Shown here one piece after another: positions 10,261-17,728 of a stretch of DNA of 64,000 nucleotides. Where the stretch lies: contig NZ_CP126159.1 of the NCBI RefSeq assembly GCF_030127145.1, forward strand, positions 372,001 through 436,000, written 5' to 3'. A program made the translations under genes and the position numbers. The stretch comes from Halobaculum halobium. GTDB lineage: Archaea > Halobacteriota > Halobacteria > Halobacteriales > Haloferacaceae. The number at the start of each line of letters is the position of its first letter. The stretch's first letter is position 1. The notes under the pieces were generated by a model, which saw nothing but the letters and a program-made list of their open reading frames with translations, did no database searches and was not told the origin of the DNA.

Positions 10261-10578
10261 CTACTCGACGACCAGTTGCGGCTCGCCGCGCTCGGTAATC
10301 GACCCTGCGCCGGTCCGCGTGACCACCACCCGTCCGTTGCTCCCGACGAAGACCTCACAGCCCGCCCAGGTGAACTCCACCTCGATGGCCGTCGGGTGCG
10401 CCCCCGCCTCGGCGCTCTCACAGAGCCGTTCGAGCGCGTCTGCGTCGACAGCGTCGTACAGCGGCGGCTCAAGTTCTGTCGGGGCGACGCCTCGGGCGTC
10501 GGCCACGGCGAAGATGACGGTTTCACTGACGGACTGTTCCTCGGTCGTACGGACGACAGTGCCTGCCTCGTATTCCAT
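10261..10578 (-). CDS. HalOD1 output-domain protein
   Basis: 105-residue stand-alone protein of the haloarchaeal HalOD1 type. It shows the family pattern SETVIFAVADARGVAPTELE, then PPLYDAVDADALERLC, and a C-terminal beta segment GRVVVTRTGAG. HalOD1 modules are proposed outputs of haloarchaeal signalling; the biochemical role is not established. A TATA-like element about 26 nt before the ATG suggests leaderless transcription. It lies downstream of the large PAS/GAF regulator on the same strand, so a functional link is possible. Confidence 0.85.
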   Translation of the reverse strand: MEYEAGTVVRTTEEQSVSETVIFAVADARGVAPTELEPPLYDAVDADALERLCESAEAGAHPTAIEVEFTWAGCEVFVGSNGRVVVTRTGAGSITERGEPQLVVE

Positions 10579-10686: not shown

Positions 10687-13212
10687 TCACTCGACCGAGG
10701 CGGAGCCACCGTCGAGGAGCATGGTGAGGAGTTTGCGCTGAGACGCGCGGAGATGGCGATTGACCGTCGGCTGTGAGACGTCCAGCGAGTCGGCGACTTC
10801 CTGTCCAGTGCTCTCGCGGGGCCACTCGAAGAACCCCCGGAGAAATGCGACGCGCAGCACCTCGAGTTGTCGCTCCGTCAGGCGCTTCTCGAACGCACCG
10901 CGCAGTTCGGTCGGGGTCCGCGCGGGTCGGTCCCGGTCCGTCTTCGACACCAGTTCGGCGTCGTCGAAGCGCGACCGGACGAATTCCACGAATCCTCCGG
11001 GGTCTGCCTCGTCAGGAATCTCCACCTCGACGCGGATCTCCTCGGCAGTGACCCGGACCGAGCGGACCTTCGCGCCGCGCTCGACGATAGGGGACAGGGC
11101 GGTTGGCCCTTGCACGACCGCTTCGAAGAGCGTGCTGTCCTCGCGATGGGCGACGAGTTCCACTTGATCGACGGCAACGGACCCCTCGAACGCCGCTTGG
11201 AACTCGTCGGGGTCTACCGACCGAGCGAGGACGTACAGCCGCGTCGTGCCGCCCGTCTCCGGCACGACTCCCTCGACCTCGATCGGCCCGCCCGCTTCCC
11301 GGGAGAATCGCTGGAGGACGTCGTTTTCACCGTCGAGGCGAAAGCCAAGTTCGGTCCTGGTGTCCGCCAGGAGCGCGCGCTTCGTCGTCACCGCCTCGAT
11401 CGCGTTCGCGATCGTTTCGCCGAGCTCTGAGAACACGGACTCCATCCCCTCGAACGCACCAGCATCGGTCCCGTAGACGGTAAGGACGCCGTGGGTGATA
11501 TCATCGTGCTCGAGCGGGACGGCGAGGACGGACCGGTACTCACGCGAGAGAGCCGCCTTGCGCCACCGCTCGCCTCCGAGGTCGCTCCCTACGTCCGACA
11601 CGGTCGTTAACTCTCCGTCCATCGCCGCGCGAGCGGACGGCTCTACGGGCCCGTCGAGCGACAGGTCGAGATCGTCGAGGTACTGGGCTCCATCTCCGGA
11701 CCATCCTCGCGGACGCACCACGTCGTCGTTCGGGTCGGACTCGCCGACCCAGGCGAACGCGATCCGGTCGGCGTCGACGAGGCGGTCGCAGACCGCACTG
11801 TCGATCTCGTCGGTCGACTCGGCCTCGACGAGGGCTTGGTCGATCTCTCTGATGATCGCGTTCACTCTGTCGAGGCGGCGCAGCTGCCTGTTCTGTCGTT
11901 CGAGCCGCCTATCCCGGTCGCGAATGGTCTCCTCTCGGTCGAGCCGAGACAGCGCTTCCTCCGCGCTGGCGGCCAGGAGGCCAACGAGCGTCTCTCGTTC
12001 CTCGTCGATGGCGCGAGGGTCTGCGGTGGCAACCACGAACACGCCGTGGTCGCCCAGCGGAACGCACAGTCCGCTGTCGATCGGCAGGTCGGCCCCCGAT
12101 CCCACGCCGTGGCCCCCATCTCCGCCGCCGTCGCAGTCGATCAGCGCCTCTTGGTCGTCGATGAACACGCGCCACGGGACGCCACCGGCGTCCGGCTCAA
12201 CCGTGGGCCAGTCGTGCGTGACAGCGAGATCCCCTGCCGAGGAGGCGCTGGGCCGGAGGACGTTCTCTGCCGGGTCGAACAGGTAGATTGCGGCGCCGTC
12301 CAGTTCGATGACGTCAGTCGCGGTCTCTGCGATGAGTTCGGCGACCTTCGACTCCGTGTCCGCTGTCAGCAGCTCCCGCGTCGAGTTGTGCAACGCGGTG
12401 AGCGTTTCCTCGTAGCGCTTCCGGTCTGAGATGTCGCGAACGACGCCCAGCTGTCCGTACCGGCCGTCAGCGAAGGGGTACAACGAGAACTTCGTCTCGA
12501 TGGGAATGGTACCGCCGTCCTTCGTCGCGATCGACGAGACGATCGTCCGCGTCTCGTCACCGGTCTCCAGCAGTTCCGCGCTCAACTCAGCCGCCTTCTG
12601 CAACAGGTCCTCAGTGGCAAGCAGCGATGCGTGCGATCCGATCAGCTCCTCTCGCGAGAACCCCGTCATCGAGACGACGGCCTCGTTGACGTTCACGACG
12701 GTGAAGTTTTCGTCGAGAACGTAGATCCCGTCGTCGGTCGTCTCGACGATCCGCTCGTACTTTTCCAGTTCACGTTTGCGTTCGCGGCGTCGGGAGACAT
12801 CGCGCACGGTCCCGACGAGGAACTCGTCGCCCCGGCGTTCGAGTGCGGTCAGCGAGACCGAGAGCCACCGGCGTTCGGCGTCGCCGTCGATCACCGGCAC
12901 GTCGAACGTATTTCCGTCGAGCGCCTCGGCGGTGCCCCAACTGAAGAAGTCGACGAGCCGTCGGTACTTCGGGAACGCCTCCGGAACGTACGTCGACAGC
13001 GATTCCCCGACGACGTCGGCCGCCGAATCACCCACGAGGCGCTCCACGTCCGGGCTGGCGTAAGCGACGGTCCCCTCCTCGTCGACCAGGACGACGGTGT
13101 CGTCGATAGCCTCCACGATCGTTCGGAAGAACGGTTCGTCGGCGTTTCGGACGCGACTCCAGTCAGGGGAATCCCCGTTTTCGCTTCGGCCGGCGAAATC
13201 GCCGTCAGTCAT
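10687..13212 (-). CDS. PAS-PAS-GAF-GAF sensor / bacterio-opsin-activator-type HTH regulator
   Basis: 841 residues from the ATG at 13212 (MTDGDFAGRSENG); an upstream in-frame start at 13239 is less likely. Two PAS domains occupy about residues 20-265 (VVLVDEEGTVAYASPDVERL; GIYVLDENFTVVNVNEAV), followed by two GAF-like domains (about 270-430 and 455-600). A BAT linker domain comes next. The C-terminal HTH_10 helix-turn-helix (LTERQLEVLRVAFLRGFFEWP ... DVSQPTVNRHLR) occupies about 775-840. The architecture matches Bat and its paralogues, sensor-regulators that respond to light, oxygen or redox and act directly on DNA. The co-directional terpene-synthase-like gene sits 75 nt upstream, so this protein may regulate it. 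Confidence 0.93.
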   Translation of the reverse strand: MTDGDFAGRSENGDSPDWSRVRNADEPFFRTIVEAIDDTVVLVDEEGTVAYASPDVERLVGDSAADVVGESLSTYVPEAFPKYRRLVDFFSWGTAEALDGNTFDVPVIDGDAERRWLSVSLTALERRGDEFLVGTVRDVSRRRERKRELEKYERIVETTDDGIYVLDENFTVVNVNEAVVSMTGFSREELIGSHASLLATEDLLQKAAELSAELLETGDETRTIVSSIATKDGGTIPIETKFSLYPFADGRYGQLGVVRDISDRKRYEETLTALHNSTRELLTADTESKVAELIAETATDVIELDGAAIYLFDPAENVLRPSASSAGDLAVTHDWPTVEPDAGGVPWRVFIDDQEALIDCDGGGDGGHGVGSGADLPIDSGLCVPLGDHGVFVVATADPRAIDEERETLVGLLAASAEEALSRLDREETIRDRDRRLERQNRQLRRLDRVNAIIREIDQALVEAESTDEIDSAVCDRLVDADRIAFAWVGESDPNDDVVRPRGWSGDGAQYLDDLDLSLDGPVEPSARAAMDGELTTVSDVGSDLGGERWRKAALSREYRSVLAVPLEHDDITHGVLTVYGTDAGAFEGMESVFSELGETIANAIEAVTTKRALLADTRTELGFRLDGENDVLQRFSREAGGPIEVEGVVPETGGTTRLYVLARSVDPDEFQAAFEGSVAVDQVELVAHREDSTLFEAVVQGPTALSPIVERGAKVRSVRVTAEEIRVEVEIPDEADPGGFVEFVRSRFDDAELVSKTDRDRPARTPTELRGAFEKRLTERQLEVLRVAFLRGFFEWPRESTGQEVADSLDVSQPTVNRHLRASQRKLLTMLLDGGSASVE

Positions 13213-13286
13213 TACGTGAACCGATTCGGGTCGGTTCAAAAACGTATTCTCGCGTTGGTGCCCGCTTGGTTACCGAGATGCGTCCG

Positions 13287-14270
13287 TCACTTGTACCCCT
13301 CGCTGGCCATGTGGTGGTTCATCACCGTCTCCATCCCGTTGACGAGCGCGCCGAGGTCGACGCTCTCGGCTTCAAGATCGCGATTCTCGACGTGTCGGCG
13401 GAGCCGCTCCCACTCGGAGAGGAACCGCTCTTCGATCCGGTAGGCTCTGATCCGGTCGGTGACCGACGCGTCGTCGCCTCCGGCCGCTTCTAATTCCTCC
13501 AGCGTGATGAGGTCGTTCTGGAGCGCATACACCACGATCCCGGCCGTGTAGTCTCCCTCGTTGATCTCGCGCTCCCACGTGGTGAGCCAATTACCGATGC
13601 GGGCCATCTTCTGGAGGTCCCACAGCTGTTCGCGAACCACACCTAAGTCCGCCGACTCGAACGACGGCGAGTACATGAGGTCGAGGTCCGCGTACGGGAA
13701 CATCACCATGTTGTGCGAGTCGTAGTGCTGGGCCCCGTTGAGATTCGCCATCGAAACGTTGTCGTTGAGGATCCGGGAGTAGTCCATCGCGTTGAGCGAC
13801 TGGCGGAGGTCGTACCGGAACACGTCTTCGAACTCTTCGAATCGAGGCGCCTCGGCGATCATCCCTTCGAACTCGTTCCAGAGTTGGCGGGCGAACGCGA
13901 CGGCCTCCGCGTCCGCGTCACGACACGGCTCAGCCGTCGACTCGTCGGCCCAGACGATAGAGCGGTAAATCTGTTCAAAAGCGCGCGAGTCCTCGTTACA
14001 CTCGGCGAGGTCGTCAAGGAAGGTGATAAACACGGTAAATATCGTCTTACGTGTGCGCACCTCGCTCGCGTGGCGCTGCGGAACCGACGACAGCGTGAAG
14101 GACGGAAGCAGGCGGTAAATCCACTTCCAGACGAACCGGTCGCGCTCGCCCCCGGCCGCCTCGTACGCCTCCACGACGTCGAGGACGCGTTCCGGGAGCG
14201 TGACCGCTGCGATAGACTCAGCATACTGCCGGCCTGATGAGGGCGCGGACAACATCGGTCGCGAGGACAT
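13287..14270 (-). CDS. Class I terpene-synthase-like protein
   Basis: 327 residues, the usual size of a single-domain class I terpene cyclase. The aspartate-rich metal motif DDLAE (D86, D87, E90) follows the hydrophobic helix TIFTVFITFL. An NSE-type second metal motif is visible as N227-x3-T231-x3-E235 (NWLTTWERE), preceded by the typical QKMARIG. The 141-residue spacing between the motifs agrees with microbial sesquiterpene cyclases. The expected reaction is ionisation of an isoprenyl diphosphate with three Mg ions, then cyclisation; substrate and product are unknown. Upstream is a 540-nt gap, and downstream is a bacterio-opsin-activator-type regulator. The call rests on motifs and spacing only. 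Confidence 0.72.
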   Translation of the reverse strand: MSSRPMLSAPSSGRQYAESIAAVTLPERVLDVVEAYEAAGGERDRFVWKWIYRLLPSFTLSSVPQRHASEVRTRKTIFTVFITFLDDLAECNEDSRAFEQIYRSIVWADESTAEPCRDADAEAVAFARQLWNEFEGMIAEAPRFEEFEDVFRYDLRQSLNAMDYSRILNDNVSMANLNGAQHYDSHNMVMFPYADLDLMYSPSFESADLGVVREQLWDLQKMARIGNWLTTWEREINEGDYTAGIVVYALQNDLITLEELEAAGGDDASVTDRIRAYRIEERFLSEWERLRRHVENRDLEAESVDLGALVNGMETVMNHHMASEGYK

Positions 14271-14814: not shown

Positions 14815-15369
14815 TCAGCCGAGCAGGTACCGCATCCACGGGTACCGCTCGATGAGTGTCTCTCCGCCGAGGTCGTACCCCTCGATGTACTGGTCGATGC
14901 CGATGATCCGTCCGGCGCCGAACGCGGCGACCGAGAGGAACACGAGCATGTACGCGAAGTCGCCGTTGATGTACCCGTGGGAGATGTCCCAGTTGCCGAG
15001 GTAGAACAACAGCATCATGAACGCGCCAAAGAACGCCGCCAGCCGGGTGAATCCGCCGACGATCACGCCGAGCCCGATGAGCACCTCTCCCCACGGCACG
15101 GCCACGTTGACGAAGTCGACGAACCAGCCCGTACTCCCCATCGTAACGAATAGATCGGCGACGGGGCTCCCGTTCGCAGGCGGCGCGTTCTGGAGGTAGC
15201 CAGCGGCGCTGAAGCTGCCCGATAGCACCTTGTCGAGGCCGCTCTGGAAGAACGCCAGCCCGATCATCAGTCTGAGCGCGAGGATGAACCAAACGCTCAG
15301 CGTATGCAGTTTGCCTTCGGCGGTGAAGCCGCCGATCGTACTTCGGAGTGTGATCTCTTGCGTTGACAT
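14815..15369 (-). CDS. DoxX-family membrane protein
   Basis: 184 residues from the ATG at 15369 (MSTQEITLRSTIGG) with about four transmembrane helices. Typical DoxX features include LRLMIGLAFFQSGLDKVLSG at the first helix and PWGEVLIGLGVIVGGFTRLA in the middle. The family includes thiosulfate:quinone oxidoreductase subunits and many uncharacterised membrane proteins, so a redox role cannot be assigned. The start is fixed by a TATA box at 15393-15400, which puts transcription initiation at or next to the ATG. Longer upstream starts would precede this promoter and are rejected. Confidence 0.9.
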   Translation of the reverse strand: MSTQEITLRSTIGGFTAEGKLHTLSVWFILALRLMIGLAFFQSGLDKVLSGSFSAAGYLQNAPPANGSPVADLFVTMGSTGWFVDFVNVAVPWGEVLIGLGVIVGGFTRLAAFFGAFMMLLFYLGNWDISHGYINGDFAYMLVFLSVAAFGAGRIIGIDQYIEGYDLGGETLIERYPWMRYLLG

Positions 15370-15392
15370 CGCATTTCCGGTATCGACAACAT

Positions 15393-15400
15393 TATTTAAA
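15393..15400 (-). promoter_or_regulatory. TATA box of the DoxX gene (leaderless)
   Basis: TTTAAATA on the minus strand, centred about 27 nt upstream of the ATG at 15369. It closely matches the haloarchaeal TATA consensus and stands out in GC-rich surroundings. Confidence 0.65.
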
Positions 15401-15613
15401 CCTTTTTGCCGGGTCCGTTTCGATCCCGACGAGGACACGTGTCCGATGCCGAGTCACTGACCGAGAGAACGGCTTTGAAGCCGCCGATTCTGTACGGTCT
15501 CCCGCACGCGAGGGCCACTGGACGACCGGCGGGCGGTGGCCGGAGACGGATACGGTTCCCAACCCGCTGGACCCGGGGGTGAAGTTCTTCGCGTCCCGCT
15601 GCGATCGGGGTGT

Positions 15614-16291
15614 ATGGACCACGACATTACGTCCCGTCCGTCGTTCGCCCTGCTGACCGTCTCGCTTGACAGCGGGGAGGCGGTCCGCGCGGAGTCGGGC
15701 GCGATGGTGAGCCACGACCGCGGTGTCGACATTGAGACCAACGCGACCGGCGGCTTCCTGAAATCGGTTCGGCGCGCGTTTGGCGGCGAGAGCTTCTTCC
15801 AGAACACCTTCACCGCGACGGAAGCCGGCGACGTGCAGTTCGCGCCGCCGCTTCCGGGCGACATCGACCACTTCGAACTGCGCGGGGAGACGGTGTATGT
15901 GCAGTCCGGGTCGTACCTCGCGGGCGGCGCAGCGCTCGACGTCGACACGGATTTCGGCGGCGCTCGGACGTTCTTCGGCGGCGAGGGGTTGTTTCTCCTG
16001 CGCGTCTCTGGCGACGGTCCGCTGTTCGTGTCGAGCTACGGCGCCATCGAAGCGGTCGATCTCGACGACCGGGACTCCTTCATCGTCGACACGGGCCACG
16101 TCGTCGCCTTCGAGGAGACGGCCGAGTTCACGGTTCGCCGCGTCGGCGGGTTACGGTCGACGCTCGCGAGCGGCGAAGGGCTCGTGTGCGAGTTCACCGG
16201 ATCGGGGACCGTCTGGCTCCAGTCCCGCAGCCAGGACGCGTTCCTCTCGTGGCTCCTGCCGAAGCTCCCGACGCGGTCGTCTTCGGCCTGA
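15614..16291 (+). CDS. AIM24 / TIGR00266-family protein
   Basis: 225 residues starting MDHDITSRPSFALL. The all-beta AIM24 fold is recognisable from repeated Gly-rich strand segments (ESGAMVSHDRGVDIET, GGESFFQNTFTA, GETVYVQSGSYLAGG, GEGLFLLRVSGDGPLFVSSYG). Bacterial and archaeal members are soluble proteins of unknown function named after a yeast mitochondrial protein. The gene is divergent from doxX (245 nt apart) and about 100 nt before the TIGR00341 gene. No catalytic residues are known for the family. Confidence 0.9.
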   Translation: MDHDITSRPSFALLTVSLDSGEAVRAESGAMVSHDRGVDIETNATGGFLKSVRRAFGGESFFQNTFTATEAGDVQFAPPLPGDIDHFELRGETVYVQSGSYLAGGAALDVDTDFGGARTFFGGEGLFLLRVSGDGPLFVSSYGAIEAVDLDDRDSFIVDTGHVVAFEETAEFTVRRVGGLRSTLASGEGLVCEFTGSGTVWLQSRSQDAFLSWLLPKLPTRSSSA

Positions 16292-16387: not shown

Positions 16388-17728
16388 ATGCGACTGATTC
16401 GGACGCTCGTGTCCGTTGACGCCGTCAGCGACGTGGAAGCGGTTCTCGACGGGTATGACATCGACCACGTCGTCGTCAGCGAAGCGAGCGACCGCAAGGC
16501 GAGCGTGCTCGTGGAGTTCCCCGTCCCCCCGCAAGCCGTCGAGACCGTGCTCGACGAACTCCGTGAGATCGAGGCCAGCGAGGACGCGTACACGGTCGTC
16601 ACCAGCGCGGAATCGGTGTTCGCACCCCACGTTGACGAGCTGGAGGCGCGGTTCGTCACGGGCACGGAGGAAGACGACGCGATCGCCACCGAAGAAGTAC
16701 GCGCGACCGCGCTGGACTTGACACCGAGTCCGGCGACGTACTACTCGATGACGGCCCTGAGCGCGCTCGTCGCGACGGCGGGACTGCTGCTCGACTCTCC
16801 GGCGGTCGTCGTCGGGTCGATGGTCATCGCGCCGTTTGTGGGCTCTGCACTCACCGCCAGCGTAGGAACCGTCCTCGACGAGCGCGACATGCTGTGGGAA
16901 GGGCTGAAAACGCAACTGCTCGGACTCGTGCTCGCGATCGCAGCGGCGACCGCCTTCAGCGCCGGGCTGCGATACGCGACGGTGATTCCGCCGGCGTTGG
17001 ACGTGACGACAACCCAGCAGATCGCCAGCCGGATCTCTCCCGGCCTGCTCTCGCTCGTTGTCGGGGCCTGCGCGGGCGCCGCCGGCGCGTTCGGTCTCGC
17101 CACGGGGGTGTCGGTCGCGCTCGTCGGGGTGATGGTTGCCGCCGCGTTGGTGCCCGCGGCCGCCGCCGTCGGCATCGGCATCGCGTGGAACGTCCCCGGC
17201 GTCGCGCTGGGCGCGTTTCTGCTGCTCGTGTTGAACGTCGTCGCGATCCACCTGTCGGCGGCGGCGGTGCTGTGGTACCTCGGCTACCGCCCCGACCGGT
17301 CGACCGCAGGCGGCGACACCGCCGTCGGTAGCACTCCTCGATACGCCTCGGCGGCGATACTCGGCGTCGTTCTCGCCGCGACGCTCTTGGCCAGCGGCGG
17401 GCTCGTGGGCGCGCAGATCGGCTTCGAGCGCCAGGCCAACGACGCCGCCGGCGACGCGCTCGACGCCGAGGCGTACGCCGACCTGGAACTCGTCTCAGTC
17501 TCGTCGGCGTTCCGGCTTCGCGGCCCGATAGCGAGCGGCGACGTACAGCGGGTGACGGTCGTCGTCGCGCGGCCCGCAGACCAACCGTATCCGGCGTTGA
17601 GTCGGACGATCGCCGACCGACTCGAACGCGATACCGACAGAGAGGTGGCGGTCACCGTCGAGTTTGTCGAACGCCAGACGACCACGCCCGAACCGTCGAC
17701 GGCGGTCGACTCGGCGGGGTCGGGGTGA
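16388..17728 (+). CDS. TIGR00341 / DUF389 membrane protein
   Basis: 446 residues with a soluble ferredoxin-like N-terminal region (residues 1-110, starting MRLIRTLVSVD). A block of hydrophobic helices follows from about 117 to 340, beginning YYSMTALSALVATAGLLLDS and including VVVGSMVIAPFVGSALTA, the DUF389 hallmark. A soluble tail follows. Function is unknown; a channel or transporter role has been suggested for the family. It ends immediately before the histidine-kinase reading frame, so the two are probably co-transcribed. Confidence 0.9.
   Translation: MRLIRTLVSVDAVSDVEAVLDGYDIDHVVVSEASDRKASVLVEFPVPPQAVETVLDELREIEASEDAYTVVTSAESVFAPHVDELEARFVTGTEEDDAIATEEVRATALDLTPSPATYYSMTALSALVATAGLLLDSPAVVVGSMVIAPFVGSALTASVGTVLDERDMLWEGLKTQLLGLVLAIAAATAFSAGLRYATVIPPALDVTTTQQIASRISPGLLSLVVGACAGAAGAFGLATGVSVALVGVMVAAALVPAAAAVGIGIAWNVPGVALGAFLLLVLNVVAIHLSAAAVLWYLGYRPDRSTAGGDTAVGSTPRYASAAILGVVLAATLLASGGLVGAQIGFERQANDAAGDALDAEAYADLELVSVSSAFRLRGPIASGDVQRVTVVVARPADQPYPALSRTIADRLERDTDREVAVTVEFVERQTTTPEPSTAVDSAGSG

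Follow-up and report, generated by a model that had tools for sequence, protein, structure and literature searches.

Which enzyme is encoded by the minus-strand open reading frame at positions 13287..14270 of a 64,000-nucleotide stretch of the Halobaculum halobium genome (the window)? Isoprenoid lipids, squalene and carotenoids are familiar archaeal products, and no report of a characterized archaeal class I terpene synthase was found in the literature that we searched, which included few subscription journals; earlier work may exist. The first-pass annotation had proposed that this gene encodes a class I terpene cyclase resembling the microbial sesquiterpene cyclases. We followed this proposal through the motifs, the predicted fold, the relatives and the genomic neighbourhood of the protein.

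The gene and its metal-binding motifs

The reading frame is a real gene that is conserved as a protein. It codes for 327 aa, with the ATG start codon at 14270 and the stop codon at 13287-13289, and this start is consistent with that in Halobaculum litoreum (MSAEPEPSAQSGTASYRERI vs MSSRPMLSAPSSGRQYAESI). Relatives with 47-60% protein identity occur at 22 named genome loci, and among the haloarchaeal matches an internal stop was seen in one weak fragment only.

The two metal-binding motifs on which the proposal was based, D86-D87-x2-E90 and N227-x3-T231-x3-E235, are indeed present in this 327-codon gene, and all six residues were confirmed letter by letter. The first motif, D86-D87-L-A-E90 (DDLAE, residues 86-90; 14001..14015, minus strand), lies at the end of a predicted helix (65-90), and the second, NSE-type motif, N227-W-L-T-T231-W-E-R-E235 (NWLTTWERE, residues 227-235; 13566..13592, minus strand), lies within another (206-237). 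The motifs are separated by 141 residues. As a chance control we used 411 unrelated genes (250 aa or longer, terpene synthases excluded) from the surrounding haloarchaeal loci: none of them had Nxxx[ST]xxxE placed 136-146 residues after DDxx[DE], and two did so when the distance was widened to 120-165 residues. The microbial spacing that had been claimed was borne out as well, as eight of nine Streptomyces clavuligerus terpene synthases taken as a yardstick have a motif separation of 138-143 residues (177 in the ninth).

Fold and family assignment

When the window protein was searched alone, it matched no Pfam or NCBIfam model, and a direct sequence search retrieved no PDB sequence. Its relatives were more informative: 36 of 47 matched PF19086 (Terpene_syn_C_2) at E <= 1, with a best value of 8.4e-8, and nine matched PF03936 weakly at the same threshold. 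A methanogen member of the family reached 20.6 bits with PF19086 (cut-off 23.7). The same model matched nothing in the whole host genome or in 14 control genomes, and a blank result with it is therefore uninformative on the absence of such enzymes. A profile search against the PDB placed Sat1646 (PDB 7e4n), a class I pimarane-type diterpene synthase, at the top (E 0.13); the NSE motif of this enzyme falls on NWxxTWxRE of the archaeal family. In global HH alignments with Streptomyces synthases both motifs were in register, the NSE-type motif with NDxxSxxKE, at a probability of 8-18% and a pairwise E of ~1e-3.

An AlphaFold2 model built from 23 sequences (mean pLDDT 84.2, pTM 0.85) has the alpha-helical class I fold. 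The first-pass annotation had named a fold other than an alpha-bundle as grounds for giving up the assignment, and the prediction went the other way. The 28 best Foldseek rows obtained with this model were all terpene synthases, at E values of only ~1e-3. In VIA-align, where the chance Z for helical bundles reaches ~13, the 50 best entries were all terpene synthases, and solved class I terpene synthases aligned at Z 19.9-21.6 with an rmsd of 3.0-4.3 A over 261-287 residues. These included abietadiene synthase (Z 21.6), Sat1646 (21.4), plant isoprene synthase (20.5) and epi-isozizaene synthase (20.2), as well as taxadiene, biformene and bornyl diphosphate synthases in the same Z range. In the class I fold, the two metal motifs are expected on helices D and H; in the model, E90 is the very last residue of one helix, and residues 206-237 form another. 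The whole model can be aligned with metal-bound terpene synthase structures, and from this structural alignment we infer that the two motifs face one cavity.

We did not adopt the name 'sesquiterpene cyclase', since the substrate is not readable from the sequence and the best PDB sequence match is a diterpene synthase. Plant di-, mono- and sesquiterpene synthases aligned equally well to the model in VIA-align.

Conserved positions and departures from known synthases

Sixteen positions are invariant in the 47 haloarchaeal sequences: R43, W48, W50, V63, D87, D197, R213, R224, N227, W228, T231, W232, R234, E235, D240 and D305. In a set of 17 archaeal sequences that includes methanogens and goes down to 19% identity, R43, W50, V63, D87, P142, D197, N227, T231, W232, E235, D240 and D305 are invariant, and K75, D86, R234 and E238 are kept in at least 90% of the sequences. 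The predicted metal-binding residues are thus among the few unchanging positions of the archaeal family. On the strength of the fold, the PF19086 matches of the relatives and these near-invariant residues, we conclude that the assignment as a class I terpene synthase holds, and that the gene product is very probably a divergent archaeal member of this class, with catalytic activity presumed.

Two features of bacterial synthases were looked for and not found. In bacterial synthases an Arg that precedes the NSE motif by about 46 residues serves as diphosphate sensor. No conserved Arg occupies this place in the archaeal proteins: positions 181 and 182 of the window protein are Q and H, and Arg occurs at position 182 in only 16 of the 47 relatives. 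Residues 300-327 contain no conserved C-terminal RY pair, and the aligned region reads Y/H-H-L-A-S-x-G. Furthermore, the residue that follows the Asn of the NSE motif is Trp, not Asp, across the haloarchaeal family. The lack of the Arg sensor and of the RY pair is compatible with membership of the class, because class I synthases share few sequence features, among them the two metal motifs (PMC10563020). As far as the alignments can tell, this lack marks the archaeal family as a separate branch of the class I synthases.

Compared with bacterial class I synthases (PF19086; Sat1646, epi-isozizaene and selinadiene synthase), the archaeal protein likewise consists of a single alpha-domain of similar length, with DDxxD/E and NSE-type motifs at comparable spacing (138-143 residues there, 141 here) and a fold similarity of Z 20-21. 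However, sequence identity is ~11-15%, the second motif reads NWxxTWxREhxEGD instead of NDxxSxxKE, and the window member is an archaeal protein that escapes detection by Pfam and whose family is often paired with sensors or regulators. With the alpha-domains of plant synthases (abietadiene, taxadiene, bornyl diphosphate and 5-epi-aristolochene synthases; PF03936) it shares the fold (Z 20-21.6), whereas it has no beta or gamma domain and only ~10% identity.

Distribution of the family in archaea

The family is present in 119 of 391 genomes of the haloarchaeal class (116 of 377 good genomes), i.e. in ~30%. Its occurrence is patchy, and only two of ten other genomes listed under the same genus carry the synthase. 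The nearest named relative of the window protein is that of Halobaculum litoreum; in the tree, these two and an uncultured relative group together inside a 23-member clade (support 99). A profile of the 47 sequences retrieved relatives beyond the haloarchaea in the same phylum, namely three groups, two of them close (E ~1e-99 and ~1e-85) and one distant (E ~1e-25). Twelve of these non-haloarchaeal genomes contain mcrA and hence belong to methanogens, and the distant methanogen group retains DDxxD and Nxxx(T)WxxE. Searches of viral contigs yielded no relative of the synthase. The window gene therefore belongs to a large, patchily distributed archaeal family of haloarchaea and mcrA-bearing methanogens, which the first-pass annotation had not described. 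In all five named plasmid records that carry it, the synthase is annotated as 'hypothetical protein'.

Several members deviate from this picture. Fragmented or stop-containing copies were seen in five same-phylum genomes of another family that lack mcrA; such copies, among them those at loci L137 and L138 and in genomes G592, G556 and G478, are possibly decaying genes or the result of poor assemblies. One locus (L081:6884-9284) carries a tandem pair of family synthase genes, a lineage-specific duplication. In a haloarchaeal side clade of four sequences (L084, L088, L089, L091) the first motif is NDLSD instead of DDLAE, and the NSE motif is intact. A gene of the cobalamin adenosyltransferase cluster adjoins the synthase in three of these four (Pfam-checked in one). 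This clade possibly has an altered or different activity.

Regulators and sensors next to the synthase genes

In the window, the synthase gene is followed on the same strand, after 48-75 nt, by a gene for a Bat-like regulator with the domain order PAS-PAS-GAF-GAF-BAT-HTH_10 (10687..13212; 841 aa from the ATG at 13212, with a TTG at 13239 as a possible alternative start). It matches PF15915 (9e-38) and PF04967 (7e-18) in addition to PAS and GAF models. The third gene of this cassette, also on the minus strand, encodes a stand-alone HalOD1 protein (10261..10578, 105 aa; PF18545, 9e-23). From this arrangement, the three genes probably form an operon and are co-transcribed. Upstream of the synthase lie genes for a DoxX family protein (14818-15438, minus strand), an AIM24 family protein (15536-16288, plus strand) and a DUF389 family protein (16388-17725, plus strand), which have no evident tie to terpene synthesis.

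The cassette recurs in the clade of the window protein. A BAT gene is adjacent or close to the synthase in 19 of the 23 members, and HalOD1 is also part of the cassette in 15. In the whole host genome, BAT and HalOD1 have only 9 and 17 matches, respectively. Three arrangements exist: synthase-BAT-HalOD1, BAT-HalOD1-synthase, and BAT divergent from the synthase. This recurrent pairing of a synthase with a BAT regulator and a HalOD1 protein is a finding that goes beyond the first-pass annotation. Upstream of the synthase, we found neither a site similar to the Bat upstream activator sequence with fewer than three mismatches nor a conserved block that could be a shared promoter motif or operator. 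The Halosimplex lineage (L003, L009, L010, L022) is without the BAT-HalOD1 cassette, and several of its members have a gene for an ABC transporter ATPase and/or permease upstream of the synthase.

The neighbouring regulator resembles Bat of Halobacterium salinarum in its set of PAS, GAF and HTH domains. Bat switches on bop when oxygen is low, and crtB1, an isoprenoid gene, belongs to the bat gene cluster (PMC2253796). In contrast to that system, the Bat-like gene here adjoins a terpene synthase, not bop or brp. Short stand-alone HalOD1 proteins (PF18545) are described as key members of haloarchaeal signalling (PMC5847659), and no link to terpene synthases came up in the text consulted; unlike the known proteins of this type, those found here are consistently placed in a terpene synthase cassette.

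Other lineages have other partners. In other clades, either a PAS histidine kinase or HalOD1 together with a FilR1-type winged-helix regulator accompanies the synthase. In all six members of the distant methanogen group, the synthase is immediately preceded on the same strand by a gene for a PAS protein, at a distance of 26-591 nt, and the two of these proteins that were scanned with Pfam both contain HisKA_2 and HATPase domains. On the Halobellus limi plasmid NZ_CP031312.1, an annotated 'bacterio-opsin activator' gene and HalOD1 are divergent from the synthase; on the Halorussus halophilus plasmid, the synthase overlaps a helix-turn-helix gene by 4 nt, with HalOD1 following, and the gene order on the Halorussus vallis plasmid is the same. 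A PAS histidine kinase gene lies downstream of the synthase on the Salinigranum marinum plasmid, and no sensor or regulator was found beside the synthase on the Natrinema thermotolerans plasmid. In both Halorussus species, a tryptophanase gene is located close upstream of the cassette on the opposite strand (L151:5838-7193, L167:2752-4110).

When each lineage below 60% identity is represented by a single sequence, 19 of 38 have a sensor/regulator ORF within 1 kb of the synthase. The first kb held 22 such ORFs per 76 flank-kb, compared with 5 per 239 at 3-7 kb, with models that were seeded from synthase neighbours and thus favour near matches and bias the count upwards. For this reason, more weight rests on the annotated plasmids and on the conserved BAT cassette.

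Alternative explanations

The class I fold is shared by the whole superfamily, and the protein could instead be a prenyl elongase, a squalene/phytoene-type condensing enzyme or a prenyltransferase; human FPP synthase (rank 29) and an archaeal GGPP synthase (rank 43) appeared in the Foldseek results with similar E values. However, elongases are marked by a pair of DDxxD motifs and squalene/phytoene synthases by a pair of DxxxD motifs, whereas the window protein has one Asp-rich motif and one NSE-type motif. The recurrent family matches are to terpene synthase models only, the 50 best VIA-align entries are terpene synthases without exception, and the host genome already encodes separate polyprenyl synthases, which makes this assignment very unlikely. 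We consider it still less credible, indeed barely so, that the protein is a catalytically dead relative which serves the neighbouring sensor as ligand-binding or regulatory partner. Such a role would agree with the frequent pairing with sensors and regulators and with the replacement of the first Asp by Asn in the NDLSD clade, but a non-catalytic binder would have no need of the metal ligands, all of which are kept in the window protein and in nearly all relatives. Within the preferred reading, the enzyme might also release an acyclic volatile similar to isoprene, nerolidol or geranyllinalool. Motifs and fold would be the same in a non-cyclising synthase, plant isoprene synthase is among the good structural matches, and no tailoring genes were found nearby. 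Nothing speaks positively for this sub-case, and cyclising and non-cyclising enzymes are inseparable by sequence; we regard it as a minor though real possibility.

The association with regulators could, in turn, reflect ancestral synteny or simply the abundance of sensor genes in haloarchaea. These organisms have many PAS and HalOD1 genes (9 BAT and 17 HalOD1 matches in the host genome alone), the neighbour-seeded models inflate the count, and about half of the sampled lineages, as well as the Natrinema plasmid copy, have no sensor within 1 kb. Nevertheless, gene order varies among the three arrangements, the types of regulator differ between clades, sensor/regulator ORFs reach about tenfold the density in the first kb that they have at 3-7 kb, even when each lineage below 60% identity is counted once, and the public annotation places sensors or regulators next to the synthase in four of the five named plasmids. 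Coincidental association of this kind is accordingly improbable. A functional link could go as far as a signalling pair, in which the terpenoid made by the synthase is sensed by the adjacent PAS/GAF protein: in haloarchaea a Bat-like one or, in some of them, a PAS histidine kinase, and in methanogens likewise such a kinase. We offer this only as a speculative and rather unlikely idea. If true, it would mean a terpene-based chemical signal or feedback circuit in archaea, with a layout like that of the synthase-receptor pairs of bacterial quorum sensing.

Proposed mechanism, substrate and product

For the terpene synthase that we favour, the mechanism would be as follows. D86/D87/E90 and N227/T231/E235 would bind three Mg2+ ions as a trinuclear cluster where an all-helical pocket opens, and this cluster, together with nearby basic residues, would remove the diphosphate from an isoprenyl diphosphate (GGPP or FPP). 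The resulting allylic cation would rearrange or cyclise and be quenched to a small hydrocarbon or alcohol. Expression would be set by the dedicated neighbours, the Bat-like PAS/GAF/HTH_10 regulator and the HalOD1 protein, in the same transcription unit. By analogy with Bat, the former suggests that the synthase may be under oxygen or redox control.

GGPP and FPP are intermediates of archaeal lipid and squalene synthesis, and both should be available in this organism, since two polyprenyl diphosphate synthases are encoded elsewhere in its genome. We lean slightly towards GGPP as the substrate, a weak preference based on its bulk use in archaeal cells and on its being the substrate of the best sequence match. 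Among the subset of neighbour clusters that we scanned, no conserved prenyltransferase, P450 or other tailoring gene was found by the synthase. As no consistent tailoring enzyme turned up in these neighbourhoods, we expect a plain hydrocarbon or alcohol, probably volatile or membrane-soluble.

With ~30% of the sampled haloarchaeal genomes and also methanogens carrying a family with intact catalytic motifs, archaea may make regulated terpene products that have so far not been looked for. Whether they form cyclic or volatile terpenes, and for what purpose, is directly testable in culturable organisms, e.g. Haloarcula, and the recurrent link to a sensor or regulator offers a handle on the timing of product formation.

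On the Halobellus limi plasmid NZ_CP031312.1, a SAM-dependent methyltransferase gene lies beside the synthase on the opposite strand, and a 'prenyltransferase/squalene oxidase repeat-containing protein', possibly class II cyclase-like, is encoded 1.2 kb away, also on the opposite strand. These two genes, at L152:10102-11262 and L152:8973-9644, could belong to a terpenoid pathway.
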